DNA of 64,000 bases from Mycobacterium vicinigordonae (GTDB lineage: Bacteria; Actinomycetota; Actinomycetes; Mycobacteriales; Mycobacteriaceae), in assembly GCF_013466425.1 (NCBI RefSeq), contig NZ_CP059165.1:4464001-4528000 (forward strand), read 5' to 3'. Below, piece by piece: positions 6,759-40,828 of this stretch. Each line of letters starts with the position of its first letter. Position 1 is the first letter of the stretch. The notes below the pieces were generated by a model that saw only the letters and a list, made by a program, of their open reading frames with translations, was not told where the DNA came from and searched no databases. A program made the translations under genes and the position numbers.

Positions 6759-6777
6759 TACAGTAAGCGATTCGGTA
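6759..6777 (+). promoter_or_regulatory. Operator-like site 1 of the shared 19-bp family
   Basis: TACAGTAAGCGATTCGGTA fits the pattern TAC[T/A]GT[A/T], nine bases, GT[A/T] shared by nine intergenic sites in this window. It lies between the PPOX-fold gene and the luciferase-like gene, 11 bases before the latter's start codon. An imperfect dyad (TACAGTAAG against TACCGAATC on the other strand) suits a dimeric TetR-type repressor. Confidence 0.65.
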
Positions 6778-6786
6778 GGGTCAACG

Positions 6787-7251
6787 TCAGCTCCGCTCCC
6801 GGACCCGTTGCGCGATCCGTGCGTTGTCCCACGTCAGTATCTTTCCTTCTGGCACGAAACGCAGAAACACGTTCTTGGCGTAGTACTTCTGCGTCTTTTC
6901 CGGCAGTCCGGACAGCGACGGACGGAACGCGGCGTACTTGGCGTTGACGGCGGCGTCGAGACGCCCAATGGCCGCCTCGCCGTTGACGATCTCGACCCGG
7001 CCACTGAGGTGGACTCCTATTAGGTCCACCCAGCGTTCGCCGGATTCGACCAGAAAAGATGCGCGGGGATCGTTGACCACCCGCGCAATCTTCTTGGTGC
7101 CGGCGGGTGTCATGATCACGATCGTGCGATCCTCGACCACGAACCACACCGGCAACGTGACCGGCCTTCCGTCCCGGCGCAACGTGGTCAGGATGCCAGT
7201 GTGCGCGGACTCGATCGCGTCCCACGCTTCGTCAGCTGTTAACCGGATCAT
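6787..7251 (-). CDS. PPOX-class flavin/F420-dependent protein (pyridoxamine-phosphate-oxidase fold)
   Basis: Small split-barrel protein of 154 residues from ATG 7251, which has TGGAG seven bases upstream; a GTG at 7275 would add eight residues. Family features are GILTTLRRDGRPVTLPVWFVVED at the N-terminal strands and PRASFLVE in the middle. Such proteins use FMN, F420 or heme. It ends just before operator site 1 and its start lies 60 bases from operator site 2, so it may be read from the same divergent promoter region as the carboxyltransferase gene. Precise cofactor and substrate cannot be told from sequence. Confidence 0.88.
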   Translation of the reverse strand: MIRLTADEAWDAIESAHTGILTTLRRDGRPVTLPVWFVVEDRTIVIMTPAGTKKIARVVNDPRASFLVESGERWVDLIGVHLSGRVEIVNGEAAIGRLDAAVNAKYAAFRPSLSGLPEKTQKYYAKNVFLRFVPEGKILTWDNARIAQRVRERS

Positions 7252-7310
7252 GTTGTCGCTCCAAGGGTTGTCCACCGTGCGGTCAGTGGTCGGCCACTAT
7301 TTGCACAGGC

Positions 7311-7329
7311 TACAGTAAGCAGTTCAGTA
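7311..7329 (+). promoter_or_regulatory. Operator-like site 2 of the shared 19-bp family
   Basis: TACAGTAAGCAGTTCAGTA lies in the divergent region between the PPOX-fold gene (start 7251) and the carboxyltransferase gene (start 7364). It keeps the same 7+9+3 spacing as the other eight sites and is nearly identical to site 1 in its first ten bases. Confidence 0.65.
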
Positions 7330-7363
7330 TGTACCGATCCGGCGAGTGAGGACGAGGACGACG

Positions 7364-8860
7364 ATGGGCAAGCCCGAGGACTGGGAAGAAACCCTCGCCG
7401 ACCTCGCCCGGCGCCGTCAGCATTCCCGCGCTATGGGCGGCCCGGAGCGCCTCGACAAGCACCGGGGCAATGGAAAATTGGATGCCCGCGGGCGGATCGC
7501 GCACCTGCTGGATCCCGGGACGTTCCGCGAAATCGGCACCCTGGTAGGCGGTGAGGTCGCTGCCGACGCCATCGTCACCGGCTCGGGGCTGATCAACGAC
7601 GCTCCAGTGCTGGTGGGCGCCGAAGATTTCACCACGCTGGCCGGCAGCATCGGTCCGGGCGGCAACTCCAAGCGCTACCGAATTGCCGAACTGGCGGTGC
7701 GCAATAAGGTCCCGCTGGTGATGCTGCTCGACGGCGCCGGCTTTCGTCCCACCGGTGGACACTACGGCCGCTCCCCCACCGACCTGCTCGCGCAGACCCA
7801 ATGCTCGGGCCGGGTACCCACCGTCGCCGCGGTGCTCGGCCCGTCGGCCGGACACGGCGCCCTGGTGGCCCCGGTGTGCGACTTCCGGATCATGAGCCAA
7901 AACGGCACCATCTTCACCGCGGGGCCGCCGGTCGTCAGAGAATCCACGGGCGAAGAGATTTCGAAGCACGACCTCGGTGGCCCAACAGTTGCGCTGCCCA
8001 GCGGGGTAATCCACAACGTCGCCGACGACGACGAGACCGTACTCGACGAGATCCGGCGTTATTTGTCATTTTTCCCGTCCAGCGCGTGGTCCTACCCGCC
8101 GTCGCTGGGGCCCGGCGAGACGTCGCAGCCGCGGCCGACGCCAGAGTTGCTGAGCATCGTGTCCCGCGACAACCGCCGCGTCTACGACATGCGGCAGGTG
8201 CTCGATGTGGTGTTCGACAGCCCCGACTGGTTCGAGGTCCAGCCGTCGTTCGGCAAAGCCGTTATCTGTGCCCTCGCGCATCTGGGCGGTCACCCGGTCG
8301 CGGTCGTTGCCAACCAGCCGCAGGTGTTAGCAGGCTCCATCGACGCCGATGCGGCCGACAAGGCAGCGCACTTCATCCTGGTGGCCGATTCCTTCCACTT
8401 ACCCATCGTCTTCCTGGCCGACAATCCGGGCATGCTTCCGGGCAGCCGATCCGAACGTCAGGGCGTATTGCGCAGCGGCGCAAGGATGTTCGCGGCGCAG
8501 ACGGCTGCGACCACGATCAAGCTGCATCTGACGTTGCGCAAGGCTTACGGCTTCGGGTCCATGGTCATGTCGCTGCTCAGCTTCGACCACCAGACCGCGA
8601 CGTTCGCCTACCCCGGGGCCACCATGGGGGCCATGAGCGCCGCCGCACTCAGCCGGGCCTCACACGCCGGTGAGGATCTGTCCGCACGGCTGCGCAAAGC
8701 GGAGTTGGAGGCGTCCTACCGGTCGGCCGAGGGCATGGGTTTCGACGAGCTGATCGATCCCCGCGAAACGCGTGACGCGCTGCTGGCCGCCTTGCAGCGT
8801 GGCCTTGCCGCGCGGCAGTCGGTCGCCGAACCGGTGGCGCGAACCGTCATCCTGCCCTAG
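7364..8860 (+). CDS. Acyl-CoA carboxylase carboxyltransferase (beta) subunit, AccD type
   Basis: Carboxyltransferase of 498 residues that would move CO2 from a biotin carrier to an acyl-CoA. ATG 7364 is preceded by GAGGACGAGG; a GTG at 7346 is an alternative. Crotonase-fold oxyanion features are seen in both halves: GAEDFTTLAGSIGPGG and AAVLGPSAGHGALVAPVCDF in the N-terminal half, and FLADNPGMLPGSRSE and TLRKAYGFGSMVM in the C-terminal half. No biotin carboxylase/carrier subunit is encoded in the window, so its partner must lie elsewhere. Its stop overlaps the stop of the convergent luciferase-like gene inside the four bases CTAG (8857-8860). Operator site 2 lies 34 bases upstream. Confidence 0.9.
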   Translation: MGKPEDWEETLADLARRRQHSRAMGGPERLDKHRGNGKLDARGRIAHLLDPGTFREIGTLVGGEVAADAIVTGSGLINDAPVLVGAEDFTTLAGSIGPGGNSKRYRIAELAVRNKVPLVMLLDGAGFRPTGGHYGRSPTDLLAQTQCSGRVPTVAAVLGPSAGHGALVAPVCDFRIMSQNGTIFTAGPPVVRESTGEEISKHDLGGPTVALPSGVIHNVADDDETVLDEIRRYLSFFPSSAWSYPPSLGPGETSQPRPTPELLSIVSRDNRRVYDMRQVLDVVFDSPDWFEVQPSFGKAVICALAHLGGHPVAVVANQPQVLAGSIDADAADKAAHFILVADSFHLPIVFLADNPGMLPGSRSERQGVLRSGARMFAAQTAATTIKLHLTLRKAYGFGSMVMSLLSFDHQTATFAYPGATMGAMSAAALSRASHAGEDLSARLRKAELEASYRSAEGMGFDELIDPRETRDALLAALQRGLAARQSVAEPVARTVILP

Positions 8861-9894
8861 GCGCGGTAGGCAGCTACGATCGGCTCGAGTTCGTCGGGCG
8901 TGGCCCCGTGCAGGATCACCGAGTCCGCCCCGTAGTCGAACTCGAGACGGATGCGATCCACACAGTGCTGCGCCGAGCCAGTTGCCGACGGTTCCAGCCA
9001 TTCGTCGGGAATCAGGGTCGCAATGTGCTCGATCTGCTCGGGGGTGGCCTTGTGATCGATGCCGCCCGGAATGGACGTCACCACCGAGTCCTCCCGGAAC
9101 CGTTGCAGCACAGCGGGATCCCAGCCGTTGGTGTTGACCAGCAGATCACCGTAGCCCTGCAGATAAGTGGCCAGCCGGGCCACCGTCTTCTTCAGCCGCA
9201 GCTGCTCGGGCAGGTGGTCACCGACGGTGGCGAAACACGACCACACCCGCACGCTGTCGGGATCGCGGCCCGCCTTCTCCGCCGCCGACTTCACCGTGGC
9301 CACGCAGCGCTGCAGGGTCTCCGGTGTGAAGTAGGTGTGCAGGATGACGTCGTCGAACACACGGCCGCCGAGGGCCAGCGTGTTGGGCCCGAACGCGACC
9401 AGCGCCAGCCGGATGTCCTCGTCGAAGTCGGGGTCGAGGAACAGGACGGGGTATTTCCCCAACGGTCCGGCGTGGTTGAAGATCAGCTCGCCGTGCCACA
9501 ACCGTCGCATGACGTTGGCCCAATCCTCCATCTGGGCGGTGGTCACAGCGGGGACGCCGAACGCCTGGTAAACCGCCGCAATGCCGCGGCCGATGCCCAG
9601 TGTGAAGCGGCCGCCGGAGAGCCGGTGCATGGTAGTGGCCCACGAACCTGTAATCAGTGGATGGCGGGTGTTGTGATTGGTTGCGGCGGTGGCGATCTGC
9701 ATCCGGTTGGTCACCGCGCAGGCGGCACCCACAAGGGAGGACGCCTCCTTGACGTTCCAGCGCTCGGAGATGAACGCGGTGCCGAAGCCGAGCTCTTCGC
9801 CGCGACGCGCCTCGTCCATCAGTGTGGCCGGACCTTCTCCCCCGGCGCCGGCCAGCAGGTAGTACCCCAGTTCGTCGAGGACGCGATCAGCCAA
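8857..9894 (-). CDS. LLM-class oxidoreductase, MSMEG_2249 family type
   Basis: Luciferase-like TIM-barrel enzyme of about 345 residues, resembling TIGR03857 (from memory), distinct from the two MSMEG_2256-type proteins here. Features: LDELGYYLLAGAGG near the start, FGTAFISERWNVKE, and GGRFTLGIGRGIAAVYQ. Two TTG codons (9900 and 9894) can start it; AAGGAG lies seven bases before the second, which I prefer. It ends the leftward operon formed by the Baeyer-Villiger-type monooxygenase and esterase genes. A role in oxidation of a ring or side-chain intermediate fits, with F420 the likely cofactor. Confidence 0.88.
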   Translation of the reverse strand: MADRVLDELGYYLLAGAGGEGPATLMDEARRGEELGFGTAFISERWNVKEASSLVGAACAVTNRMQIATAATNHNTRHPLITGSWATTMHRLSGGRFTLGIGRGIAAVYQAFGVPAVTTAQMEDWANVMRRLWHGELIFNHAGPLGKYPVLFLDPDFDEDIRLALVAFGPNTLALGGRVFDDVILHTYFTPETLQRCVATVKSAAEKAGRDPDSVRVWSCFATVGDHLPEQLRLKKTVARLATYLQGYGDLLVNTNGWDPAVLQRFREDSVVTSIPGGIDHKATPEQIEHIATLIPDEWLEPSATGSAQHCVDRIRLEFDYGADSVILHGATPDELEPIVAAYRA

Positions 9895-9918
9895 TTCCAA
9901 ACTCCTTGATTGTCATCA

Positions 9919-11052
9919 TCATTCGGCGACCCGAAGCACGGCGTCCTCGCTGACCTCGCGCAAGAATCGCTCCGAGACGGCCAGGACCCGGCGGGAGAAC
10001 ACGTGACTGACGTGGCCGCCGGCGTACCAGTACAGCTGGCCTCCCCACTTCTGCTGCAGGGCCAGCGTCGGCTCGAGCATGGCCATGCGGTCGTGGCGCG
10101 CGCCGATGATCAGCCGCCGGTGCGGCGGCGGTGCCGGGTCGGCCTGCAGCGGGTCGATCACCGTGGTCAGCTGCGTGACGACGTCGGACGCCAACAGCTC
10201 GCGGTAGTCGCTGCGCGCCGCGCCCGACCTGCCGAGGTGGCGCGCGATCATCGAGTTGAGTCCCAGGATCGGGGTGTACAGCGCGACGGCGTGCACCTGC
10301 CGCTCGAGGTGCGAGACCAGGGCAGCCACTGGGCTTCCCATTGAAACACCCGCTATCACAACGACGGTGCCCTGCCGGAGTGCCCAGCGGACCACCGCGC
10401 GAATCTCTGATACCGAGCGCATCATGCCGGCGACATTGCCCAGCGGGTCCATGTCCGGGTAGACCGGCCAGTACTTGCGCCGGCTGCCATGGCCCGGCTG
10501 CACCGGCATCGCGACGTTGAAGCCCAACCCGCGATGGATCCGGTCGATACGCGACATCAGCATGTCCTGCGCGCCGCCCTGACCGGCACCGTGGATCCAG
10601 ATGAGCCACGGCCGCGGACGGTCGCGGTGCCGGCAGAGGTGAACCACCGCCCGGGAAGGCCCGCCGAACCCCTCATCCATCAGCGACATCGGCAGCTGCG
10701 GGTCATGCTCGAAAGTCATGCGCTCGTACCTCAACCCGCCGATACGACGCCGTTTGATGCCGTGCACCCGCAGTGGCGCGGGGTCCACGTAGGCGCCGTC
10801 CAGACCGAGCGCTGACAACTCCTCGGCCGCCGCCACGCACCCCTCCGCTGACCGCACCGTCACCGGCCCGGCGTCGCCGAGCACCGAAAATCCGGTCAGC
10901 ACCAGCTCGTCCAGCAACACCTCACCGAACTGGCGCACCCCACACGGCCCCGGGCCGTCGGCCTGGGAACCGGCCCGGACCCCGGCCACAGTCCGCGGCA
11001 ACAGCATGCCCACTTCCCGGGTGACGCCGAGTCCGCGCGATACCAACGACAT
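9919..11052 (-). CDS. Alpha/beta-hydrolase, probable esterase or lactonase
   Basis: Serine hydrolase of 377 residues. The oxyanion motif HGAG is at 154-157 and the nucleophile elbow GVSMGS has S237; a C-terminal histidine (GGHVSH) is available as base. The first 140 residues precede the hydrolase core and look like a separate cap or lead-in domain. ATG 11052 has AGGTAGGTG just upstream. It is directly downstream of a Baeyer-Villiger-type monooxygenase gene (gap 10 bases). Such monooxygenases make esters or lactones from ketones, so hydrolysis of that product is the natural inference, not proven. The histidine and acid of the triad were placed by eye. Confidence 0.85.
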   Translation of the reverse strand: MSLVSRGLGVTREVGMLLPRTVAGVRAGSQADGPGPCGVRQFGEVLLDELVLTGFSVLGDAGPVTVRSAEGCVAAAEELSALGLDGAYVDPAPLRVHGIKRRRIGGLRYERMTFEHDPQLPMSLMDEGFGGPSRAVVHLCRHRDRPRPWLIWIHGAGQGGAQDMLMSRIDRIHRGLGFNVAMPVQPGHGSRRKYWPVYPDMDPLGNVAGMMRSVSEIRAVVRWALRQGTVVVIAGVSMGSPVAALVSHLERQVHAVALYTPILGLNSMIARHLGRSGAARSDYRELLASDVVTQLTTVIDPLQADPAPPPHRRLIIGARHDRMAMLEPTLALQQKWGGQLYWYAGGHVSHVFSRRVLAVSERFLREVSEDAVLRVAE

Positions 11053-11062
11053 AATCAATCAC

Positions 11063-12676
11063 CTACCTGAGCTTAAAACCGGTGTAGCCGGCGGCGGCGA
11101 TCTCGTCGCAGCGTCGCCGGTATTCGGGGATTCCGCCGGTATAACCCATGTACATCCGTTTCTTGCCGGGTACGTTGCCACCGTTGTACCAGGAGTTGCA
11201 GGAGGGATGAACTAGGACCGTCGCCGCCACCAGTGAAGTGGCATGATCGATCCATTCCTGTTGCGCACTGCTCAATGCCTCGATGGCGCGAATCTTATTG
11301 GCGCGCAGGTACGCAATGCAGTTGCCGATCCATTCGACATGTTGCTCGAGCGCGGCCACATAATTTGTGGCCGCGCTCGGGCTGCCGGGCCCCTGGATGG
11401 TGAAAAGGTTCGGGAATCCGGCGATCGCCAGCCCGAGGTAGGACAGCGGTCCTTCCGCGGACCAGAATTCGCCCAGCGACAACCCGTCGCGGCCGCGAAT
11501 GTCGATGCGGCTCAACGCTCCGGTCATCGCGTCGAATCCGGTGGCGTAGACGATCACGTCCAGTTCGTACTCGTTGCGCGCGGTCCGGATGCCGGTAGGT
11601 GTGACCGCGCGGATCGGGTCACCGTGCAGGTCGACCAGAATGACGTTGTCGCGGTTGAACGTTTCGTAGTAACCCTGGTCGATGATCGGGCGCTTGCAGG
11701 CGAACGGGTGCCGAGGTACCAGCGCGGCTGCTGTCGCCGGATCCTTGACGATCCGCGCGACCGCTTCACCGTACAGTGCGGCGGCCATCCGGTTGGCCTC
11801 GATGTCGAAGAAGACGTCACTCCAATTCAAGGCGCCCAGAACACCTTTATCCTCGATGGCCCGCAGTTGTTCTTCCCGGGTCGCCGACTTCAGAGCCGGG
11901 CTGGCCAGCATCTCCAGCAGCACCGAGAACGCACTGAGCCGTGCGGCACCGATCGGATGCTCGCGTTGCGCAGCGCGAATCTCGCCATAAGTTGCCTTCA
12001 TCTGGTCCAGTTCGCCCGGTTCGAAGCGCCGCACTCGCCAGGGCAGCGTATAGGGCGCTGAACGCTGAAACACATAGAGCCGCTGAGCTTCCCGAGCCAC
12101 CACCGGAATGAGTTGCACACCGGTGGAGCCGGTGCCAATCACCCCGACCCGCTTTCCGGTCAACTCGAAGCCCTCGTGTGGCCAGCGGCTGGTGGACAGC
12201 GACGTCCCGGTGAACGACGCCAGGCCGGTGATGTTAGGTTCCAGCGGCACCGACAGTATGCCCGAGGCGGCGACGACGAACGAGGCTGTGCACGTCTGCC
12301 CGGCTTCGGTTCGAACCCGCCAGACCACAGCGTCTTCGTCGAAGTCCATCGCGACCACCTTGGCGCCGAACGTGATGTCGCGGCGCAGGTCCAGTCGGTC
12401 GGCCACGAAGTTCAGATAGGCCTCGATCTCGGGCTGGGCCGGCATGGATTCGGTCCAGACCCATTCCTGCTGAATCTCTTCGGAGAAGCTGTAAGAGTAT
12501 TCGATGCTCTCGATGTCGCAGCGCGCGCCCGGGTAGCGGTTGACCAGCCAGGTGCCACCGACGTTGTCGGCCATCTCCAGCGCCCGGCTGCGCAGCCCGA
12601 GTTCGCGCAGCTGGTGCAGCATGTACAGGCCGGAGAATCCGGCGCCGATCACGATTACGTCGAAGTCAGGGTCCAC
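11063..12676 (-). CDS. Baeyer-Villiger-type flavin monooxygenase (cyclohexanone monooxygenase-like) with altered fingerprint
   Basis: FAD/NADPH enzyme of 537 residues starting at GTG 12676. FAD loop GAGFSG at 11-16, NADPH loop GTGSTG at 181-186, and conserved ARCDIES, QPEIEAYLNFV and YATGFDAMTG place it with cyclohexanone/phenylacetone monooxygenases. The family fingerprint FxGxxxHxxxW[P/D] reads F155-TGTSL-S161-TSR-W165-P166, with serine where histidine is nearly universal. Family members insert oxygen next to a ketone, giving an ester or lactone; whether this protein still does so is open. It heads a unit with the esterase and luciferase-like genes, with operator site 3 upstream and a SnoaL fragment immediately before it. 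Confidence 0.9.
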   Translation of the reverse strand: MDPDFDVIVIGAGFSGLYMLHQLRELGLRSRALEMADNVGGTWLVNRYPGARCDIESIEYSYSFSEEIQQEWVWTESMPAQPEIEAYLNFVADRLDLRRDITFGAKVVAMDFDEDAVVWRVRTEAGQTCTASFVVAASGILSVPLEPNITGLASFTGTSLSTSRWPHEGFELTGKRVGVIGTGSTGVQLIPVVAREAQRLYVFQRSAPYTLPWRVRRFEPGELDQMKATYGEIRAAQREHPIGAARLSAFSVLLEMLASPALKSATREEQLRAIEDKGVLGALNWSDVFFDIEANRMAAALYGEAVARIVKDPATAAALVPRHPFACKRPIIDQGYYETFNRDNVILVDLHGDPIRAVTPTGIRTARNEYELDVIVYATGFDAMTGALSRIDIRGRDGLSLGEFWSAEGPLSYLGLAIAGFPNLFTIQGPGSPSAATNYVAALEQHVEWIGNCIAYLRANKIRAIEALSSAQQEWIDHATSLVAATVLVHPSCNSWYNGGNVPGKKRMYMGYTGGIPEYRRRCDEIAAAGYTGFKLR

Positions 12677-12857: not shown

Positions 12858-12876
12858 TACTGTAATGGATTAAGTA
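12858..12876 (+). promoter_or_regulatory. Operator-like site 3 of the shared 19-bp family
   Basis: TACTGTAATGGATTAAGTA lies between the leftward monooxygenase operon (SnoaL fragment start 12808) and the rightward Rieske oxygenase operon (start 12903). It can control both divergent promoters. Spacing matches the other sites exactly. Confidence 0.65.
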
Positions 12877-12902: not shown

Positions 12903-13937
12903 GTGAAGGTCCCTTTCACCTGGAAGGTCACCGGGTGGTTCATGGTCGGATGGTCACCTGAGTTCCCGGTCGGCGAAGTTCGGCCACTGCACTTCTTCAG
13001 TGAGGATCTGGTCGCCTACCGCGACGAGGCAGGTGAACTACACGTGCTCGAAGCCCACTGCAAACACCTCGGGGCCCACCTCGGCCACGGCGGCACCGTG
13101 CTCGGCGACTGCGTGCAGTGCCCGTTCCACGGCTGGCGCTGGGGTCCCGATGGCACCAACCGCTACATCCCCTACCAGCCGGACCGCCCCAACAAGGCGC
13201 TGACGCTTCGGGTGTATCCGGTTCGGGAACAGTACGACTGCGTGTTTGTCTGGCACCACCCCGACGGCAAGGAGCCGCAGTGGGAAATGCCCGACATATT
13301 CACGAAGTTCCCACAGTTCGAGACGAATCCAGCGGCATACTACCGGGCCTACCCAGAGTTCTCCCGGCGCGCCGAACGTGAGCCGGTGCATCCACAGATT
13401 GTCGCCGAAAACGCACCGGACAGCGCGCATTTCGAGTATGTGCACCACTCGACCGTGACGCCGCGGGTGCTGGACTGGCGCATCGTCGACCACGAGTGGC
13501 AGTTCACCGCCGGCTGGCCGGACGCACACAGCGGCGATCCCAACGATCTGGCACTGCTGTTTCACAGCCACTTGTTCGGACTCGGCGGCGCCATCAGCGT
13601 GTTCGAGGGCGCGCAGAATCACCGGCTGATCTTCACCTGCACGCCGGTCGACGACCACTGTTCGGACCTGTTCTACTCGATCTGGTGGCCGCGGCAGCCG
13701 GGCGACGACGCCCCGGTACCCGATGGCAAGCTGCGTGACGTAATCGAAAAGCAATTCCTGTCAACCGTCTTCGACGACCTGCAGATCTGGCGCTACCAGA
13801 AGTACGTGGAGCATCCGCCGTTGTCCAAGGTGGATGCCAAAGGCTATATGGCGCTGCGGAAATGGGCGACACAGTTCTACGATGTCCCGGCCGACGCTTC
13901 GCTCGAGCGGTCGGCCGGCGTCGGGACTCCGGGATGA
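12903..13937 (+). CDS. Rieske [2Fe-2S] ring-hydroxylating oxygenase, KshA-like
   Basis: Terminal oxygenase of 344 residues starting at GTG 12903. Rieske ligands are C53, H55, C73 and H76 (CKH and CPFH). The catalytic domain has the N170/D173/H176/H181 set in AENAPDSAHFEYVHH, matching the mononuclear-iron site of KshA-type steroid and related oxygenases. An acidic third ligand is probably in FDDLQIWRY near residue 290. It needs a reductase, and none is encoded in the window. It starts a four-gene operon with isochorismatase-fold, thioesterase and FadD genes linked by ATGA overlaps. Operator site 3 is 27 bases upstream. Probable role: hydroxylation of a polycyclic or terpenoid substrate. Confidence 0.92.
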   Translation: MKVPFTWKVTGWFMVGWSPEFPVGEVRPLHFFSEDLVAYRDEAGELHVLEAHCKHLGAHLGHGGTVLGDCVQCPFHGWRWGPDGTNRYIPYQPDRPNKALTLRVYPVREQYDCVFVWHHPDGKEPQWEMPDIFTKFPQFETNPAAYYRAYPEFSRRAEREPVHPQIVAENAPDSAHFEYVHHSTVTPRVLDWRIVDHEWQFTAGWPDAHSGDPNDLALLFHSHLFGLGGAISVFEGAQNHRLIFTCTPVDDHCSDLFYSIWWPRQPGDDAPVPDGKLRDVIEKQFLSTVFDDLQIWRYQKYVEHPPLSKVDAKGYMALRKWATQFYDVPADASLERSAGVGTPG

Positions 13938-14554
13938 CGAGCAGACTCGCCGGCCTCGTCGAGCCGGGACGCACCGCGGTCGTCACCCAGGAATGCCAGG
14001 GCGCCGTGATGGGCCCAGATGCCGGGCTGGGGATGCTTGCCGCGGAAGCACGCCGGGTGGCATTACCCAATATCGTCCGGCTGCTCCCCGCGGCGCGTGC
14101 CGCCGGCGTGCACGTGGTGCACTGCCTGGTACAGAAGCGACCGGACGGGCTGGGCTCCAACCACAACGCCAAGATCTTCGCCCTCGGTCAGGGTGAAGTG
14201 GACATTACCCCCGGGACGCCTGGTGCGACGTTGCTACCCGAATTAGGCCCTGAACCAACGGATCTGGTCCTGGCCCGCTGGCACGGCGTGGGGCCGATGG
14301 GCGGCACCGACCTGGACGCGGTGCTGCGCAACCTCGGCGTGTCCAACGTCGTGGTAGTCGGGGTTTCCCTCAACATCGCGATCCCCAACTTCGTGATGGA
14401 CGCGGTCAACGCCGCCTACCGCGTGGTGGTGCCACGCGATGCGGTGGCCGGTATCCCGACCGAGTACGGCGAGGCCGTGATCGCCAACACCTTGTCGCTG
14501 CTGGCCACCATCACCACCACCGACGACCTGCTGCAAACCTGGCCGCCGGCATGA
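13934..14554 (+). CDS. Isochorismatase-fold (cysteine hydrolase family) protein lacking the catalytic triad
   Basis: Protein of 206 residues from ATG 13934, which overlaps the Rieske gene stop (ATGA). The fold is recognisable from TAVVTQECQ, GVHVVHCLV, GGTDLDAVLR and VVVVGVSLNIAIPNF. In active members the first strand ends in Asp, a lysine precedes the GTDLD segment, and a Cys lies in the NxC loop. Here the Asp position is E20, no lysine is seen near 110-120 (ARWHGVG), and the Cys position is A149 (LNIAIP). It may be a non-catalytic or differently acting member. Fully conserved operon position suggests it is expressed. The alignment was done by eye. Confidence 0.82.
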   Translation: MTSRLAGLVEPGRTAVVTQECQGAVMGPDAGLGMLAAEARRVALPNIVRLLPAARAAGVHVVHCLVQKRPDGLGSNHNAKIFALGQGEVDITPGTPGATLLPELGPEPTDLVLARWHGVGPMGGTDLDAVLRNLGVSNVVVVGVSLNIAIPNFVMDAVNAAYRVVVPRDAVAGIPTEYGEAVIANTLSLLATITTTDDLLQTWPPA

Positions 14555-15171: not shown

Positions 15172-15178
15172 GAGAGAA

Positions 15179-27697: not shown

Positions 27698-27700
27698 TAT

Positions 27701-30174: not shown

Positions 30175-30177
30175 CGA

Positions 30178-33301: not shown

Positions 33302-33311
33302 GTTGCGCTCC

Positions 33312-33938
33312 TCATCGGGTCGGTCCTGCCACGATTCCGTACACCGCACCCAGCCATATCGCCGCGGCACCGTCGAGCAATTCGGCCCGCGTCAGCGGGC
33401 CTCCCAAAGTCATCCGTTCCAACAAGCGGTCGTTAACTTCCAGCAGTACGGTGGCCAACACCGTCGCGTCGATTCCGTCCGGAGCGATGCCCGATGCGCG
33501 TTCGGCGCGGATCATGCCGGCCACCGACTCGACGAACATGGCGCGGCCGTCGTCCCACCTCCGGCGCCCGGCCGCACTGCGCCCATGTGCCTGCAGGGCT
33601 GCCTTGAACATCGACCGGTGCCGCTCCCAGGTGTCGAACAACCCGTCCAGCATGCCGCGTACCCGCTCTCGCGGCGCGCAGTCGGTCATCGTGAATATGT
33701 CGTTGACGAACATCGTGTCGTCGACCATGCGTTCCATCAACGCTGCGACGGCCGCCGCCTTGCTCTCGAAGTAAAAGTAGAAAGCGGGGCGGGTCACCCC
33801 GGCGCGGGCGGCCACCTCGGCGATGTTGACATCATCGAAATCATGCTCCTGCAAGGTGCTTTCGAGCGCGTCGAGGATCGCCTCGCGGCGCTGGTCACCG
33901 CGCTGCGGGGGGCGGCGGTCGGTGCGCGCCCGGGTCAC
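33312..33938 (-). CDS. TetR-family regulator, EthR-like
   Basis: Repressor-type protein of 208 residues from GTG 33938, which overlaps the FMO stop (GTGA); a longer open frame to 34154 is spurious. The N-terminal helix-turn-helix covers about 20-65: AEVAARAGVTRPAFYFYFESK resembles that of EthR. The helical C-terminal part would hold the ligand pocket. Pairing with a flavin monooxygenase recalls ethR/ethA, but here the genes are co-directional. It is a candidate to read operator site 7 at 35340-35358, which lies before its operon. Ligand unknown. Confidence 0.88.
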   Translation of the reverse strand: MTRARTDRRPPQRGDQRREAILDALESTLQEHDFDDVNIAEVAARAGVTRPAFYFYFESKAAAVAALMERMVDDTMFVNDIFTMTDCAPRERVRGMLDGLFDTWERHRSMFKAALQAHGRSAAGRRRWDDGRAMFVESVAGMIRAERASGIAPDGIDATVLATVLLEVNDRLLERMTLGGPLTRAELLDGAAAIWLGAVYGIVAGPTR

Positions 33939-35257
33939 AGCGCGGCCCCGGCACGCCGGCGGCCGGCCGGGATCTCGCGGGCCCGCAGGTCGTGCTCGTA
34001 ATAGAAGTAGTCGACCTGCTGGGTATGCCGCGGCCGGTCGACGCAATGGCCGGTGTAGAGGCGCTGGTCGGCGTCGATCACCCGCTCCATCTCGTCGACC
34101 GGCGGCAGCGCATAGCGACCGACAGCGTAGGCGGCGAGCAGTCGCGACTGGCACTCGACGAACGGAAACAGGGTTGGAATGGCCTGAGCGAACCCGATGA
34201 AAACGAGGTTGTCCACGCCGGGCTTGAACATCCGCTTGTAGAGCCGGATCTGATTGTCGGGGGCGTCGACGAAGTCCGGGTCGAAGAACGGAAAGGTGAT
34301 GTTGTAGCCCGTCGCGTAGACGATCGCGTCGAAGACTCCGCTGCTGCCGTCGTCGAAATACGCTGTGGCACCGTCGAGCCGGGCCACGTTGGGCTTGGGC
34401 GTGATATCACCGGACCCGAGCCGCAGCGGCAGTTCGACCGATTGGGTGGGATGTGCCTCGAACAGCTTGTGGTTGGCCGGCGGCAGGCCGTACAGAGTCG
34501 GGTCGATACCCAGCATCGGGGCCATCAACTGCGCCACTTTGCGTTGCCAGGACAGCGGGAGGTAGGGCGTGGTGCGAAAGAAGCGGTCCCCGGGTTGGCC
34601 GGCGAGGTACTTCGGCACGATCCACGCACTGGAGCGGGTGGACAGAGTGACCGTGTTCTGCAGTGCGCGGGAAGACAATTCGACAGCGATGTCCGCGGCG
34701 CTGTTCCCGATACCCACCACCAGAATGCGCTTGCCGGTCAGCTCCAGCGGGGTGTGCGGGTCGATGTAGTGGTGCGAATGGATCGCCTCGCCGGTGAAGG
34801 TGCCAGGAAAATCGGCCAGGCGCGGATCCCAGTGGTGCCCATTGCCCACCACCAGCAAGTCGAACTCGCGTGTTGCACCGCGTTGATCGCGGATCTCCCA
34901 TCCGGTACCGACTTTGCGGGCGCGCAGAACGCCGTTGTTGAACTCGATGTGCTCGAGCAGTCCGAAAGCCTGCGCGTAGGAGTCCAGGTAGGCCTTGATG
35001 TCGGAGTGATGCGGGAACGACGGGAAGTCGTCCGGGATGGGAAAGTCTTTGAACGACAACCGATGTTTTGAGGTGTCGATGTGCAGCGAGCGGTATGCGC
35101 TGCTGTGCCCGTTGGGATTGCCGAACGCCCAGTTACCGCCGATTCGGTCAGACAGCTCGAAGGTGGTGTAGGGCACCCCGTAGTCCTTGAGCATCTTGCC
35201 GGCGGTCAGGCCGCTGATCCCGGCGCCGATGATGGCGGTGCGCGGACGCAACATCAC
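33935..35257 (-). CDS. Flavin-containing monooxygenase
   Basis: FAD/NADPH monooxygenase of 440 residues; GTG 35257 or ATG 35254 starts it. FAD loop GAGISGL near 10-16, fingerprint FTGEAIHSHHY near 155-165 (FxGxxxHxxxY, histidine intact), and NADPH loop GIGNSAAD near 180. ATGYNITFP near 313 is the C-terminal signature. Members oxygenate nitrogen, sulfur or ketones, and some perform Baeyer-Villiger reactions. It starts the leftward FMO-TetR-hydrolase operon and is divergent from the CoA-transferase gene, with operator site 7 between. Confidence 0.92.
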   Translation of the reverse strand: MMLRPRTAIIGAGISGLTAGKMLKDYGVPYTTFELSDRIGGNWAFGNPNGHSSAYRSLHIDTSKHRLSFKDFPIPDDFPSFPHHSDIKAYLDSYAQAFGLLEHIEFNNGVLRARKVGTGWEIRDQRGATREFDLLVVGNGHHWDPRLADFPGTFTGEAIHSHHYIDPHTPLELTGKRILVVGIGNSAADIAVELSSRALQNTVTLSTRSSAWIVPKYLAGQPGDRFFRTTPYLPLSWQRKVAQLMAPMLGIDPTLYGLPPANHKLFEAHPTQSVELPLRLGSGDITPKPNVARLDGATAYFDDGSSGVFDAIVYATGYNITFPFFDPDFVDAPDNQIRLYKRMFKPGVDNLVFIGFAQAIPTLFPFVECQSRLLAAYAVGRYALPPVDEMERVIDADQRLYTGHCVDRPRHTQQVDYFYYEHDLRAREIPAGRRRAGAAL

Positions 35258-35339
35258 CGGAGGCTAACACCGGCTTTTGACGCTGGTCAATGATTTCTGA
35301 CAGATGTCAAAATACGATTTGCCAACGTCTGGACTCAAT

Positions 35340-35358
35340 TACTGTTGCATCAACTGTA
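35340..35358 (+). promoter_or_regulatory. Operator-like site 7 of the shared 19-bp family
   Basis: TACTGTTGCATCAACTGTA lies between divergent genes for the flavin monooxygenase (start 35257) and the CoA-transferase (start 35436). It has TGTT rather than TGTA in the first half but is a good dyad (TACTGTTG against TACAGTTG). The surrounding 178 bases contain no gene. Confidence 0.6.
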
Positions 35359-35435
35359 CTGGGTTCAGATGATGTGCAGTACGCTGCCTAGGTGACGAGC
35401 GCCGCGCTGCCGGTCACCTTCGACAGAGGTTACGA

Positions 35436-36662
35436 ATGATCAAAGTAATGCAGGGCTTTCGGGTCCTGGAGGTCGCACAGTTCACGTTCGTCCCGGCGGC
35501 TGGCGCCATCCTGGCCGACTGGGGCGCCGACGTCATCAAGGTTGAGCACCCGTTGCGCGGCGACACCCAGCGCGGCTTCGTCAACATGGGCGGCATCCAG
35601 GTCGACCCGCAGCGGCATCCCCTGATGGAGCATCCCAACCGCGGCAAGCGCAGCGTCGGGATCGACATCTCCACGCCGGGGGGCCAGCAGGTGATCTACG
35701 AACTCGCCAAGACCGCCGATGTGTTCCTTACTAACTACATGCCCAGGGTGCGGCAGAAGAACAAGTTCGACATCGAACACATTCGCGCGGTAAACCCAAA
35801 CATCGTCTACGCGCGCGGCACGGCGTACGGCGACAAGGGCGAGGAGCGTGACGTCGGCGGGTTCGACGGCACGGTGTTCTGGACTCGCAGCGGAATAGGG
35901 CACGCATGCACCCCCGAGGAGCTGGGCGCTCCCTTGTCGCAGGGGATTCCCGCCTTCGGCGATTCCATCGGCGGCATGTTCATCGCAGGTGGCATCTCGG
36001 CTGCGCTGCTGCATCGCGAACGGACCGGCGAGGCGCTAGAACTCGACGTGTCGCTACTCAGCACTGCCTGGTGGGCCGCCGGCGCGAGTGTCACCCAAGG
36101 CATGGAGACCGGCGAGGTCATGCGCGCTCCGATGCCGGGAACCACTGGTCCACTGGTGAATCCGTTCATGGGCAACTACCAGACTGCCGACGGCGGCACC
36201 ATCAACCTGTGCATCATCAGTCCGACCGGGCTGATCCGCGACACCTTCGAGCATCTCGGCATTCCCGAGGCCGCCGACGATCCCCGCTTCTCAGAGGTGC
36301 TGCCACTGATCCAAAATGCCAGTGCGGCAGCAGAATTGATTGCGAAGGCGGTCGCTGGCAAGCCTTTCGACTACTGGCGACAGCACCTAAAAACGATGCG
36401 GGGCCAGTGGGCTCCGTTCCAGAGCCTCGTCGAGCTGGCCACCGACGAGCAGGCTCTGGCCAACGACATGATCGCCGAGGTCGAGCTTGCCAGCGGCGGT
36501 TCGCCTTTCAAAGTGGTTCGCGGACCGGTTCAGTTCAACCACGAACCCCTGGTGACCACCAGGGCCCCGCAGGCTTCCGAGCACACTGAGATCGTGCTGA
36601 TGGAAATCGGCATGGACTGGGACCGCATCGTCGAGCTCAAAGACGCGGGCGCTATCGCCTGA
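35436..36662 (+). CDS. CaiB/BaiF family III CoA-transferase
   Basis: CoA-transferase of 408 residues that would exchange CoA between carboxylic acids without ATP. It opens with [30 protein letters not shown], the family signature, and has [18 protein letters not shown] context near 150 (seen as GGFDGTVFW) with the catalytic aspartate. RPNKRS-like [12 protein letters not shown] is near 70. It is a single rightward gene read from the site 7 region. Its 3' end meets the crotonase pseudogene on the other strand. Alpha-methylacyl-CoA racemase is an alternative activity in this family. Confidence 0.9.
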
Positions 36663-37037
36663 CGCGCCTGACTCAGGGGCAGAAACCGAGGTGGGCGCTT
36701 CTCCGGAAAACTCACGATGCCTTCGCGGACGTCGGGCCGCGACAGCGCCTACCACATCAGCGCTTCGGCGTCGGTGGTGGCAGTCACGTCTCCCACGGCG
36801 GGAGCCGAACCCGACGAACCCAGGTGAGCGCCGGCAGAGAATGCCCGGCCCGGCCCGTCACGACGATGACCCGGATGTCCGGTTCCTGCTCGGCAGGATC
36901 TACCGCGGCATGGAGCGGCGACGCCATATCCGGGCCCATGCGTTGAGGCGCTCGCGACGGTTGAGCGTGACGACGGCAACGCCCGCCGAAGTGGTCTCAT
37001 AGAGCACCGCATCAGAGTCACCAGCCGGCTCAGGCAT
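36663..37037 (-). pseudogene. Decayed crotonase (enoyl-CoA hydratase) gene
   Basis: Three pieces of a crotonase lie in order but out of frame. From ATG 37037: AGVAVVTLNRRERLNAW, a perfect crotonase opening. A missing G near 36935-36937 then shifts to AEQEPDIRVIVVTG, and a further shift gives AFSAGAHLGSSG, the first oxyanion loop. After that most of the core is deleted; an in-frame TAG precedes ALSRPDVREGIVSFPEKR, the normal C-terminal end. An intact gene would span about 800 bases; 375 remain. Its ATG overlaps the stop of the DapA-like gene, so it was once the second gene of that operon. Confidence 0.8.
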
Positions 37038-38037
37038 CGACGAGGCCGAGCTTCCGATACGCAGCCCGCATCTGAGTCTTGGCCCCATCCGGCAGCTCGG
37101 CCTGCGGCGGTCGGGAATGCGGGTAAGCACCAATCGGTAGGCCCAGCAACGAGGCTGCAGCCTTGAAGGCCCCGCCCCAATGCGTGAAGTATTCGGGCCG
37201 CCCCGGGTAGCAGGTGAACCACGACGCCATGTCGAGTTCGAACTGGTCCAGACCCGAATCACGGCCATAGTCCATGGCTTCCAGCAGTTTGTCGCTCCTG
37301 ATCAGGTCCCAGTACTCGGAAAAAATCGGGCGCGCTGGGGTCTCGTAGAGGTAGCCGGCGGTGCCCAGTTGCGCAGCACACACGATTCCGTCGCGCAGCC
37401 AGCCAGCCCGGTAGACCGTCTTGTCGCATTCCCACAGCACCAGGCCGGGCGCCAGCTCGTGTAGTCGCCGGCTGGCTGCGGGCCGGAACGCACCCTCCTT
37501 GGTGGCGCATACCGCCGGCACCTCGTGGTAGATCCGCGCGCTTTCTTGCGGCGTAAGCACATAGCCGGAGGAAGGCGAATTGAACATGCCCAGCGCGATG
37601 TCGGTGCGGGCGGCGATGTACTTGAAGAAGCGCAACACGCCGTCGCCGCCGTGCGTTTCCATCATCGGCGTTTGGATGTAGACGATATCGGCTCCCGCTC
37701 GCTGGGCATGCAGCGTGAGTTCAAGGCAGTCCTTGGCGCTGATCGCCGCCGTGCAGGCTTGCACGACGACATCGGGGTTGATCGCGCGCGCCTGGTCGAC
37801 GGCCACCTCGAGCAGCCGCTTGCGCTCTTCGATGGTCAGTGCCCAGAATTCGGCGATCCCGCTGGTGCACCACAACATCGGGTGTCCCAGATCACCGACG
37901 CAGTAACGTATCAACGCGCGGTACGCGTCCCAATCGATATCGTCGCCGTCCTTGCCGCAGAACGGCGTGTACAGGGAGTTGCCGATCCCGCGTAACGCAC
38001 CGCGCGCCCAACTGCGCGCCTCAGCTGCCATGGCCAT
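37030..38037 (-). CDS. Dihydrodipicolinate synthase/N-acetylneuraminate lyase family protein
   Basis: Class I aldolase-fold lyase of 335 residues from ATG 38037, which has AGGGAG upstream (TTG 38058 is an alternative). The Schiff-base lysine is in VCATKEGAFR near 185, and the GxxGE-like loop reads LWCTSGIAEF. The tyrosine that normally precedes the NxP loop is phenylalanine here (GMFNSPSSGY). Members split or join pyruvate with aldehydes, and some in catabolic clusters act as hydratase-aldolases on aromatic ring-fission products. The gene is divergent from a TetR gene with operator site 8 between. A retro-aldol step is a reasonable inference. Confidence 0.88.
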   Translation of the reverse strand: MAMAAEARSWARGALRGIGNSLYTPFCGKDGDDIDWDAYRALIRYCVGDLGHPMLWCTSGIAEFWALTIEERKRLLEVAVDQARAINPDVVVQACTAAISAKDCLELTLHAQRAGADIVYIQTPMMETHGGDGVLRFFKYIAARTDIALGMFNSPSSGYVLTPQESARIYHEVPAVCATKEGAFRPAASRRLHELAPGLVLWECDKTVYRAGWLRDGIVCAAQLGTAGYLYETPARPIFSEYWDLIRSDKLLEAMDYGRDSGLDQFELDMASWFTCYPGRPEYFTHWGGAFKAAASLLGLPIGAYPHSRPPQAELPDGAKTQMRAAYRKLGLVDA

Positions 38038-38220
38038 GATCCACTCCCTGTCGGACAACTATTTTCGCGGAGTATTCCGAGGTACCCGGGCCAACGCCGC
38101 CGGACAGCTCTCCGGGTCGTCACTGCCGCTCGGTACCCTCACCGGGCAACGGGGCGCACCGGCTGCTCCGATGCTGCCACTGCCGCCGCAAGGCCGCCGG
38201 AGACGAGTTACCAAAATGCG

Positions 38221-38239
38221 TACGATAGGGATTACAGTA
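38221..38239 (-). promoter_or_regulatory. Operator-like site 8 of the shared 19-bp family
   Basis: On the minus strand this reads TACTGTAATCCCTATCGTA. It lies in the 310-base region between the DapA-like gene (start 38037) and the TetR gene (start 38348). The rest of that region shows no gene that I can support. Position next to a TetR gene makes autoregulation likely. Confidence 0.6.
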
Positions 38240-38347
38240 GCAGAGGTAACACCGTTCGGAGCATGCATCACCAGGGGCTACCGGTAAGCTGGTCGGTCAA
38301 CGAAACACTTAGGATACGCAGCACGGATCGTCATGGAGGTGCCCGTA

Positions 38348-39130
38348 GTGGCAAAGCAGGCAACCGCCGAGAAGCGTCAGCGACGTGAACGCGGTTCCAT
38401 CAATCCCGACGACATCATCAGCGGCGCATTTGAACTCGCCGAGCAGGTGTCGGTCGACAACTTGAGCATGCCGTTGCTCGGCAAACATCTTGGCGTCGGT
38501 GTGACCAGCATCTACTGGTACTTCCGCAAGAAGGACGACCTGCTCAACGCCATGACCGACCGTGCGCTGGGCAAATATGTCTTCGCCACCCCCTACGTCG
38601 AAGCCAGCAACTGGCGCGATACATTGCGCAACCACGCGCGCTCCATGCGTAAGACATTCATGGGCAACCCGATTCTGTGCGACCTGATTCTGATCCGCGC
38701 AGCTCTGAGCCCAAAGGCCGCGCGGATGGGCGCTCAGGAGATGGAGCGTGCCATCTCCAACCTGGTTCAGGCGGGACTGTCGCCCGAGGACGCGTTCGAC
38801 ACCTATTCAGCGGTTTCCCTGCACGTGCGCGGATCAGTGGTGCTTCAGCGACTGTTCGAGAAGAATCAGTCCGCCGACAGTGGGCCGCGCTCGATCGAGG
38901 ACGCGGTGGGTATCGACCCGCAGACCACTCCGCTGATCGCTCAGGTCACCGGCAAGGGTCACCGTATCGGCGCCCCCGACGAGACCAATTTCGAATACGG
39001 CCTGGATTGCATCCTCGACCACGCCGAACGACTCATCGAAGAGGGCGCCAAGTCCGCCAAGGCGAACTCGCGACCACGCAAGGCGACCAAGTCCGCCACG
39101 ACGCGCACCAGGTCCGCGACCAACCGTTAG
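38348..39130 (+). CDS. TetR-family regulator with basic C-terminal tail
   Basis: Repressor-type protein of 260 residues. GTG 38348 follows GGAGGT at seven bases and is preferred over ATG 38333, which overlaps that ribosome site. The HTH is about 35-70: LSMPLLGKHLGVGVTSIYWYFRKK. The C-terminal 30 residues are rich in Lys, Arg, Ser and Thr (KATKSATTRTR), a tail seen in some mycobacterial nucleic-acid-binding proteins. It is a single gene, preceded by operator site 8 and followed by a convergent crotonase operon. It is the better placed of two candidates in the locus to control the nine-site regulon. Confidence 0.9.
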   Translation: MAKQATAEKRQRRERGSINPDDIISGAFELAEQVSVDNLSMPLLGKHLGVGVTSIYWYFRKKDDLLNAMTDRALGKYVFATPYVEASNWRDTLRNHARSMRKTFMGNPILCDLILIRAALSPKAARMGAQEMERAISNLVQAGLSPEDAFDTYSAVSLHVRGSVVLQRLFEKNQSADSGPRSIEDAVGIDPQTTPLIAQVTGKGHRIGAPDETNFEYGLDCILDHAERLIEEGAKSAKANSRPRKATKSATTRTRSATNR

Positions 39131-39139
39131 GAGCGTCGG

Positions 39140-40033
39140 TCAGGACCCGTCGGGCTCGGGTACGTGAAAGTGCTCGTCGCGCAACCGGAAAGCCTCCTTG
39201 GTGCCGTGCTCGGCACGGGTCTTGACGAAGTTAAATTCGCCGGGGCCGAACTGCAGGTTGGTGCCATAGGCGTGGAAGAGATAACTCGCGACTTCCTCGC
39301 CGTTGTAGGCCTGGGTCTGTTCGACGAGCCGGAACGCCTCCTTGGCGATCACGATGCCGTCCGCAGGCATCTTGGCGACCTTCTCGGCCCAGTACCGTGC
39401 ACGCGCCCTGACTGAGCCGGAATCGCATGTGTCGGTGAAGATTCCGAGGTGCTCGAGCTGGCCCGCCTCGACGATGTCACCCGTCAGCAGCAACCGGCGC
39501 GCCAGCACCGGGCCGAGCCGATGGAAGAACATGTGCAGACTGCCCAATGCGGGACCGAGGAATCGCGTCGCCGGCATCCCAATCTTAGTGTCACGGGCGA
39601 TGACCGAGATATCGGTCATCAGCGCCATCTCGAAACCACCGCCAAGCGCATATCCAGAGATCTCGCCGACCGTCACCTTTGGAAAGCCCATCAGGTTGTG
39701 GTAAAAGCCGAATGACTTGCGATCTACGGTGAGTCGCCGACGCTGACTGGGTCGGCTCTTCTGCGCCCGCTGCTCCTTGTCGGCTGCTCCGTACCAGCCG
39801 TAGGCGTTGTTCATGTCGGCGCCGGTGCTGAAGACTCCGTCGGCGCCACGCAGGATGACCACGGTGATGTCGTCGTCGTCGGCCACGTCGTCGAGGTGGC
39901 CCGCGACGGCGTTTCGCATCGCGGCGTCATAGGAATTGCGCTGCTGTGGGTTGTTCAGGGTGATCGTGGCGATGCGCCGGTCCGGGTCGACGTCGTAGCG
40001 CACGCGATCGTCGGTTGCGCCGGTTTTTGTCAT
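39140..40033 (-). CDS. Enoyl-CoA hydratase/isomerase (crotonase) family protein
   Basis: Crotonase of 297 residues from ATG 40033, which overlaps the thioesterase stop (ATGA). Landmarks: IATITLNNPQQRNSYD, FSTGADMNNAYG and EISGYALGGGFEMAL. An Asn-rich, long insertion follows the first oxyanion loop (WYGAADKEQRAQKSR), and the C-terminal region has FHAYGTNLQFGPGEFNF, unusual for hydratases. Catalytic residue positions (a glutamate in most hydratases) read ATRFLGPALGS, so the activity may not be hydration. Second gene of a two-gene leftward operon with the thioesterase. Confidence 0.88.
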   Translation of the reverse strand: MTKTGATDDRVRYDVDPDRRIATITLNNPQQRNSYDAAMRNAVAGHLDDVADDDDITVVILRGADGVFSTGADMNNAYGWYGAADKEQRAQKSRPSQRRRLTVDRKSFGFYHNLMGFPKVTVGEISGYALGGGFEMALMTDISVIARDTKIGMPATRFLGPALGSLHMFFHRLGPVLARRLLLTGDIVEAGQLEHLGIFTDTCDSGSVRARARYWAEKVAKMPADGIVIAKEAFRLVEQTQAYNGEEVASYLFHAYGTNLQFGPGEFNFVKTRAEHGTKEAFRLRDEHFHVPEPDGS

Positions 40034-40722
40034 GCTTCGGTCTCCGTTCTGCGCCGGCTGAACCGGGTGGTGGACAGCTGATCCGGCCGCGACGCCAAAG
40101 TGTTGACCTCGCCGGTGCACAGCACCTCGCCGTCGAGCAGTAACCGTGCCGTCGACGTGATGCCTCGTTCCACCTGCGACCGGACGATGTCGAAGCTTAG
40201 GTCTGTCAGCAGCGGTGCCGGACGACGGAACGTGACGTTCAGCGACCGCGTCTTACCCGATCGGCCCGTAAGGCAATTGTGGTGCTGTATAACGCAATCG
40301 AAGAAGACTCCGAGAAGACCACCGTGTACTAAACCAGGTGGGCCTTCGTAGAGCAAGGGGAAGGAAACCCACCCGGCGGCGGTCTCGGGGCCGAGTTGCC
40401 CGAATCGGTATTCGGGAAAGCACGGGTTGTAGGCGCCGATGTCGGTGGCGTGGTTGAGATAGACCCGGCGGGCGTCGTTCTCCCGCTCGCCGATGCGTGG
40501 CGTGTTGTCGGGGGGCGCGGTAGCCGCCAGTTCGGCTTCCCACTCGACGAACTTCGCCACCATCGCATCCACCGCCGGGTGCGGGGTTTCCTGCGACAAC
40601 AGCAGCGAACTCAGCCGGCGCATCGCCGCCGCCGCGGCGACGGTCTGAGCAAGCGGTGCCTCACCGAATCTGGCAGTCGAGGCTTCGGACGGATTGTCGG
40701 ACGGGCTGGTGCCCTCGGCCAT
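40030..40722 (-). CDS. PaaI-like hotdog thioesterase
   Basis: Protein of 230 residues with the hotdog fold in the C-terminal part: GPPGLVHGGLLGVFFDCVIQHH is the active-site helix with the histidine-glycine pair, followed by TRSLNVTFRRPAPL. The N-terminal 90 residues form a helical lead-in, as in the thioesterase at 14551-15171. Expected activity is hydrolysis of an acyl-CoA thioester. First gene of a leftward pair with a crotonase, divergent from the long crotonase/AMP-ligase operon. Operator site 9 is 88 bases upstream. Confidence 0.85.
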   Translation of the reverse strand: MAEGTSPSDNPSEASTARFGEAPLAQTVAAAAAMRRLSSLLLSQETPHPAVDAMVAKFVEWEAELAATAPPDNTPRIGERENDARRVYLNHATDIGAYNPCFPEYRFGQLGPETAAGWVSFPLLYEGPPGLVHGGLLGVFFDCVIQHHNCLTGRSGKTRSLNVTFRRPAPLLTDLSFDIVRSQVERGITSTARLLLDGEVLCTGEVNTLASRPDQLSTTRFSRRRTETEA

Positions 40723-40809
40723 TTCTCCTCTTTGTCGCCTGTTCCACCGGCCCCATATCCGCCGGTAGGGTTTCTTGCTAACTTAATACACATTATCAAT
40801 CGTATTGCA

Positions 40810-40828
40810 TACTGTATGGGTAACCGTA
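40810..40828 (+). promoter_or_regulatory. Operator-like site 9 of the shared 19-bp family
   Basis: TACTGTATGGGTAACCGTA lies between the thioesterase gene (start 40722, leftward) and the first crotonase gene (start 40854, rightward), where both promoters must be. The dyad is TACTGTAT against TACGGTTA. Confidence 0.65.

Follow-up and report, generated by a model that had tools for sequence, protein, structure and literature searches.

A recurrent 19-bp dyad and a TetR-family gene point to one local catabolic regulon in Mycobacterium vicinigordonae

Introduction

KstR and KstR2 are TetR-family regulators of large steroid-catabolism clusters. A mycobacterial repressor of the TetR family, BkaR (Rv2506/MSMEG_4718), is described as acting on its own gene; its palindromic operator, of core GTTA(N)T(N4)A(N)TAAC, stands before neighbouring catabolic operons, and 10 directly controlled genes are reported in M. 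smegmatis (PMC3920632). Mce3R, associated with the mce3 operon, is described as a double-TetR chain with 25-bp asymmetric, non-palindromic operators (PMC11667970). The present work deals with a stretch of 64,000 nucleotides of Mycobacterium vicinigordonae (contig NZ_CP059165.1, positions 4,464,001 to 4,528,000), called the window below, in which a 19-bp dyad recurs in front of genes of catabolic type. A sequence-only reading of this DNA had listed nine such sites and had proposed one TetR-type regulon. The comparison of the window with its genome and with related genomes suggests that ten sites quite probably serve as operators in a single local catabolic regulon, with the TetR-family product of the gene at 38333-39130 as their reader. 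Coordinates are those of the window and genes are designated by their lower coordinate.

Results

Number, clustering and position of the sites

The pattern TACWGTW-N9-GTW was searched on both strands (a match is called a strict site) and the same pattern read backwards was used as control. The window contains 11 matches, i.e., 10 places, since 35340 is counted on both strands. The value expected by chance is far lower: 100 dinucleotide shuffles of the window give a mean of 0.08 and a maximum of 1. The nine sites listed earlier are all recovered by the scan, on the strands given; seven of them lie between divergent genes and those at 6759 and 32320 each precede a single leftward run, as had been described. 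The tenth place (57427-57445, minus strand) comes in addition to them.

All ten places are intergenic, the sole overlap being one base at 32320, which is the outermost base of a predicted start codon; the non-coding share of the window is 5.1% (own gene calls). The genome (6,266,765 bases, one contig) contains 17 matches, i.e., 16 places, of which 10 are inside the window. Such a clustering, at least 10 of 16 places in one 64-kb stretch, has a binomial P of about 9e-17, calculated post hoc. The sequence-only reading had named, as the result that would speak against operators, a pattern equally common within genes and between them. This is not what is found inside the window; outside, four of the six places lie within predicted genes (L002, L003, L004 and L015). 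The two others are (i) a site where two divergent genes, for a TetR and a periplasmic-binding protein, overlap at their predicted starts (L001) and (ii) a site between genes, before an RDD-family gene (L016), with a similar site before an RDD-family gene as its counterpart in the related genome G108 (L157).

Anatomy of the operator

The majority consensus, calculated from 73 sites (55 distinct) of nine cluster sequences, is TACTGTAA-NNN-TTACAGTA, i.e., 19 bp. The positions left free in the search mirror the fixed half: C is found at position 15 in 59 of the 73 sites and T at position 13 in 51; position 14 is mixed (A in 36, T in 32). The dyad thus reaches past the searched letters. The operator can be represented as two 7-bp units TACNGTA, each palindromic in itself, with centres 12 bp apart. 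Only one spacing is preferred: in the window and seven relatives 90 hits fall at 19 bp, and every other spacing between 10 and 33 bp gives 0 to 11; hits on the two strands are added up, so that perfect dyads count twice.

Beyond the 19-mer, 13 of 68 sites have an additional 7-bp unit, matching in 4 or more of 6 letters, at offset −12, and 14 of 68 have one at offset +24, versus 0 to 5 of 68 at each of the other outer offsets (−36 to −6 and +19 to +49). Offsets −5 and +17 are also high, through two letters shared with the core, and offsets overlapping the core were excluded from the count. In the window, third units are found at 12846, 38209, 40798 and 57439.

Conservation in relatives

The best 80 of 292 stretches encoding a relative of the 38333 protein were taken as the relatives' loci; they are from Mycobacterium, one being titled Mycolicibacterium. 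A strict site is present in all 80, at 215 places in 1.55 Mb versus 13 for the backwards control. If the pattern is relaxed slightly, a site is found upstream of the TetR gene in 77 of the 80 loci. The rows of the alignment of these upstream regions were drawn by expressions fixing most core letters, and the conservation of the core in it is thus largely by construction; only the count of loci (77/80) and the lower conservation of the flanks are independent of it.

Other promoters retain the site as well. Under the relaxed pattern it is found before the 40854 crotonase with 65 occurrences in the 80 loci (the gene itself is found in 70) and directly beside the orthologs of the 31361 crotonase with 59 occurrences. 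The CoA-transferase is found in 15 of the 80 loci, and its upstream DNA is covered in 10; five of these 10 have a differently spelled site with the same dyad. In G108, eight of the ten sites stand before the same orthologs and in the same order. In G020 and G028 sites also stand before the same orthologs, with rearrangements, and in G086 one site is flanked by an EcKL-type gene and a carboxyltransferase. The cluster of G137, which belongs to another genus, also retains sites. Off-cluster sites occur before P450 genes in other species (L155, L158, L160), that of L155 with a 12-bp-phased third unit.

Co-occurrence of the sites with the TetR gene at 38333

Four regulators are encoded in the window: the TetR-family protein 38333, the EthR_C-type TetR 33312, the TetR 47730 and the GntR-FCD regulator 49874. 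The 38333 protein matches PF00440 (TetR_N) with E 4.5e-12 and PF02909 with E 4.4e-10, both above cut-off, and is thus assigned to the TetR family. In the source genome its only match at E ≤ 1e-30 is itself.

The occurrence of the gene was compared with the abundance of the motif in a panel of 118 genomes from the genus, sampled at even intervals out of a larger group. An ortholog was defined by a best E of 2.4e-111 or lower and a weak homolog by any other match at E ≤ 1e-30. Some match is found in 92 of the 118 genomes, i.e., an ortholog in 88 and a weak homolog in four. Genomes with an ortholog have a median of 12 motif matches (range 2-22), with a ratio to the backwards control of 0.34. The 26 genomes without a match have a median of 2.5 (0-16) and a ratio of 0.117, and the four with weak homologs only a median of 3.5 (3-7) and a ratio of 0.076. 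For this ratio, the difference between the 88 genomes and the other 30 corresponds to a Mann-Whitney P of 6.6e-12.

In distant homologs, the end of the recognition helix was compared with the presence of sites; the numbers are small, and L150, with WYF but no site, is an exception. Loci whose protein ends the helix with WYF (L148, L149, both G137 genes and the second G020 copy) or WHF (L152) have sites, and those with WHV (L151, L153, L154) have none in 20 kb. Among the distant homologs with sites in their locus, G137 and L148 are from other genera and L149 is from another family.

These results are in line with two proposals of the sequence-only reading: a TetR gene near 38348 (open reading frame 38333-39130) as that of the regulator, since a site precedes it in nearly all relatives' loci and motif abundance follows it across the panel, and a single TetR-type regulon, since abundance follows one TetR gene and sites are kept at orthologous promoters. 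On comparative sequence grounds, the ten places form a real and conserved set of predicted operators, and the assignment of the regulator is well supported.

Two further observations concern the TetR gene in relatives. Several relatives, among them G020, G096 and G049, have another TetR of this kind at 16-22 kb from the first; its identity to the query is about 50-58%. The ortholog at G281:C1:1961785-1962240 matches over residues 1-152 only (84% identity) and may be a truncated gene.

Genes of the cluster

The predicted operators and the genes around them are collected in Table 1. Gene families were assigned by a Pfam scan of 56 window proteins.

Table 1. Predicted operators and genes of the cluster, in window coordinates.
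Feature	Coordinates	Strand	Remarks
Operator 1	6759..6777	+	precedes the leftward run from 6747 by 11 bp; same position before the ortholog in G108
Operator 2	7311..7329	+	between PNPOx-like gene (6787-7275, −) and carboxyltransferase gene (7346-8860, +); retained before the carboxyltransferase in G108, G020 and G028
Operator 3	12858..12876	+	between FMO/BVMO-like run (−) and Rieske run (+); extra 7-mer 12 bp to the left (12846)
Operator 4	18018..18036	+	between luciferase-like gene 16933 (−) and lipocalin-like gene (+); found in G108
Operator 5	19774..19792	−	between P450 18431 (−) and thiolase 19818 (+); found in G108
Operator 6	32320..32338	+	before leftward run crotonase, amidohydrolase, AMP ligase, amidohydrolase, two acyl-CoA dehydrogenases
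Operator 7	35340..35358	both	between FMO 33935 (−) and CoA-transferase III 35436 (+); lowest matrix score among the nine; dyad retained in G045
Operator 8	38221..38239	−	between DHDPS-like gene (−) and TetR gene (+); with third unit spans 38209..38239
Operator 9	40810..40828	+	between x40030/crotonase run (−) and run of three crotonases and three AMP ligases (+); with third unit 12 bp to the left spans 40798..40828
Operator 10	57427..57445	−	before EcKL/APH-type kinase gene 56328-57401 (−); third unit to 57457
Run behind operator 1	2348..6747	−	luciferase-like 5716-6747; P450terp-like P450, 4484 to about 5728; SDR 3569-4438; SDR 2348-3130
PNPOx-like (−), carboxyltransferase (+)	6787..8860		
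F420-family luciferase-like, esterase-like, BVMO-like flavoprotein	8857..12676	−	
KshA_C-type Rieske oxygenase, isochorismatase-like, thioesterase, AMP ligase	12903..16831	+	
Luciferase-like (−), lipocalin-like (+), P450 (−), thiolase-like (+)	16933..20996		
Split acyl-CoA dehydrogenase pair, two amidohydrolase_2, AMP ligase, crotonase	25448..32320	−	
Alpha/beta hydrolase, EthR_C-type TetR, FMO (−); CoA-transferase III (+)	32390..36662		segment varies between species
DHDPS-like protein	37030..38058	−	
TetR-family regulator (TetR_N and TetR_C_1)	38333..39130	+	proposed reader of all ten operators
Crotonase and protein without Pfam match (thioesterase-like by eye)	39140..40722	−	
Three crotonases, three AMP ligases	40854..47737	+	
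GntR-FCD regulator	49874..50647		before run of acyl-CoA dehydrogenase, CoA-transferase, thiolase and SDR
EcKL/APH-type kinase	56328..57401	−	behind operator 10

The co-directional runs comprise 37 genes behind the nine sites and one more behind the tenth (own gene calls). These genes are mostly of catabolic type, and their count exceeds the earlier estimate of about 30. The regulon would include three luciferase-like monooxygenases, two P450s, two FMO/BVMO-like flavoproteins and a Rieske oxygenase, the latter with 104 bits to KshA. Two of the luciferase-like proteins were compared with F420 families and both fall in them; the family names F420_MSMEG_2249 and F420_MSMEG_2256 suggest that M. smegmatis may also have genes of the cluster. 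Among solved structures, P450 4484 is closest to P450terp (336 bits) and P450 18431 to CYP130 (203 bits). This gene content is that of an oxygenase-plus-CoA pathway. From the enzyme families in the runs, the substrate may be guessed to be alicyclic, i.e., terpenoid- or steroid-like.

The longest frame of P450 4484 (4484-6208) starts about 160 residues too early; translation probably begins near 5728, which gives a slight overlap with the luciferase-like gene 5716-6747 at its end. No strict site accompanies the genes at 21020-25436 (DUF1275, GGDEF-EAL and one without match); the PAS-GGDEF-EAL protein at 21934-23676 sits among them, inside the catabolic cluster. An ABC transporter pair, one half of which is fused to a siderophore-interacting FAD domain, adjoins the cluster at 57482-62256 and is presumably IrtAB-like.

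Discussion

Proposed mechanism

The 38333 protein would bind the 19-bp dyad as a dimer. Eight of the ten sites have a start codon at 0-32 bp, and for 35340 and 38221 the closest one is 77 and 93 bp away, respectively. With the eight sites so near to start codons, the bound protein most likely prevents the flanking runs from being transcribed. By binding at 38221 it would also repress its own gene (putative autoregulation). A sigma-70 scan of 37900-41000 gives no match, with 0.6 expected. Release by a ligand of the pathway is the usual scheme in the TetR family; here, the ligand would be an intermediate, with a CoA thioester and the substrate as probable candidates, and about 38 genes for the breakdown of an oxygenated, probably alicyclic compound would then be switched on together. 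The third 7-bp unit, present at 12-bp phase in a minority of sites, would let a second dimer bind side by side.

A bolder proposal, which should be considered doubtful, extends this scheme: an undescribed regulon for the breakdown of an alicyclic isoprenoid throughout Mycobacterium (ortholog in 88/118 genomes), with a repressor that would read self-palindromic 7-bp units at 12-bp phase, neighbouring dimers sharing a unit, and with a side-by-side assembly that would grade repression by the number of units.

Weighing of the alternatives

Several observations weigh against the 38333 protein as the reader of the sites. In number, the motif is not over-represented in the source genome (17 matches versus 36 for the backwards control); the signal lies in clustering, position and conservation rather than in the genome-wide total. 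Of 27 orthologs of at least 66% identity, 25 have a site at most 400 bp upstream, which speaks for the 38333 protein, but L133 and L139 lack one at that distance. In a further set of ten, made up of more distant homologs and second copies, L148 and L152 alone have a site so close, and L150 shares the helix end WYFRKK yet has no site in 20 kb. The TetR is missing from two 3.3-Mb genomes, G075 with 16 matches and G115 with 9, although the control gives 59 and 60 there, respectively; G089, also without it, has 9 versus 10. Moreover, the presence of the TetR gene is also the presence of the cluster, so that an unlinked regulator lost together with the cluster may account for the same co-occurrence.

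That the sites are true operators read by such an unlinked regulator, or by 33312, TetR 47730 or GntR-FCD 49874, appears unlikely as a whole. The EthR_C-type TetR 33312, which the sequence-only reading had put forward as second candidate, does sit in the run behind site 35340, but it is found in none of the 80 relatives' loci (at least 55% identity, flanks up to 10 kb) and in 24 of the 118 genomes (E ≤ 1e-30), and the 65 genomes with a 38333 ortholog and no 33312 match keep a median of 11 motif matches. TetR 47730 is found in 10 of the 118 genomes (E ≤ 1e-60). Both are thus missing from most genomes that retain sites and were rejected as main regulator. GntR 49874 is nearby and widespread (103 of the 118 genomes, E ≤ 1e-60); it was likewise rejected, since the 15 genomes that have it without a 38333 ortholog contain 0 to 6 motif matches, and no strict site stands beside its gene. 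It is equally improbable that the 38333 protein, once bound to the sites, activates transcription or both activates and represses it: sites 35340 and 38221, at 77-162 bp from both flanking start codons, leave room for activation, whereas the other eight lie where a bound protein would block the promoter, and BkaR, a characterised mycobacterial relative in kind, is described as a repressor (PMC3920632). A promoter element, a repeat family or chance would fit the lack of excess over the control, but hardly the symmetry past the searched letters, the single preferred spacing, the intergenic position of all ten places and their retention at orthologous promoters in many species; this explanation is very improbable. 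A repressor encoded at 38333 is thus the reading retained here.

Significance

For a large catabolic cluster common to many mycobacteria, the comparison thereby provides one operator open to testing and one gene for its regulator. With this operator, genes of the pathway can be looked for in other mycobacterial genomes, off-cluster P450 genes included, and it offers a direct route to the inducer and hence to the substrate.

Comparison with known systems

The regulons of KstR and KstR2 share with this one the TetR-family control of large catabolic clusters and comparable kinds of enzymes, but neither operator is present in the window. The KstR operator TnnAACnnGTTnnA has no match in it, nor has that of KstR2, which we take to be AnCAAGnnCTTGnT; the sequence-only reading had stated that none of its nine sites is of KstR type. 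The half-site letters of the E. coli LexA (SOS) box are similar to those of the window operator. However, the form TACTGTA-N6-TACAGTA has no hit in the window, where the spacing is one base shorter.

A relation to Mce3R, suggested earlier, is not borne out. TetR-type domains and lipid-related targets are shared, but the Mce3R operator is described as asymmetric (PMC11667970), and the Pfam scan finds neither an mce/yrbE domain nor a double-TetR protein among the 56 window proteins, the TetR proteins 33312, 38333 and 47730 having one TetR_N match each. The 408-residue protein at 35436, considered as an Mce3R-like double TetR, is a CoA-transferase III, and the run at 40854, considered as an mce operon, consists of crotonases and AMP ligases.

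Motif X/Rv0767c of Mycobacterium sp. VKM Ac-1817D is described as palindromic and placed before phytosterol-induced genes including P450s, with a proposed TetR autoregulation (PMC6593523); for Rv0767c sites, an enrichment of GAC/GTC and a depletion of TAA/TTA are described (PMC10312376). By these text descriptions the trimer content points away from the window motif, which is built on GTAA...TTAC. The strict sites that the source genome has outside the window are all more than 10 kb away from every P450-like match. An ortholog of Rv0767c was sought via adjacent P450 genes, and no clear pair is seen among the 58 P450-like matches.

The palindrome TAC-N6-GTA was reported by McGuire et al. (2012) before fas and desaturase genes, as groups of 2-3 sites lying close to one another and, in one case, at even intervals (PMC3388012). 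Its gap is 6 bp versus TAC-N13-GTA here, which results from TACNGTA units 12 bp apart; as a shared motif it was rejected, since the window contains it only at 1972 and at 32327, the second of these lying within operator 6. Motifs are also given by Balhana et al. for 30 conserved, divergently oriented TetR genes (PMC4482099).

A description of this operator or cluster was not found in searches of the open-access literature, including by motif letters or locus tags, which is consistent with the earlier remark that the regulon is possibly undescribed; on that literature it is apparently so. BkaR (PMC3920632) is alike in kind of regulon, with 10 genes versus about 38 here, and its core has no match in the window. 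In kind the regulon is thus ordinary, i.e., a TetR-type local catabolic regulon like those of KstR and BkaR, and the most unusual detail of its operator is the repetition of units at a 12-bp phase.

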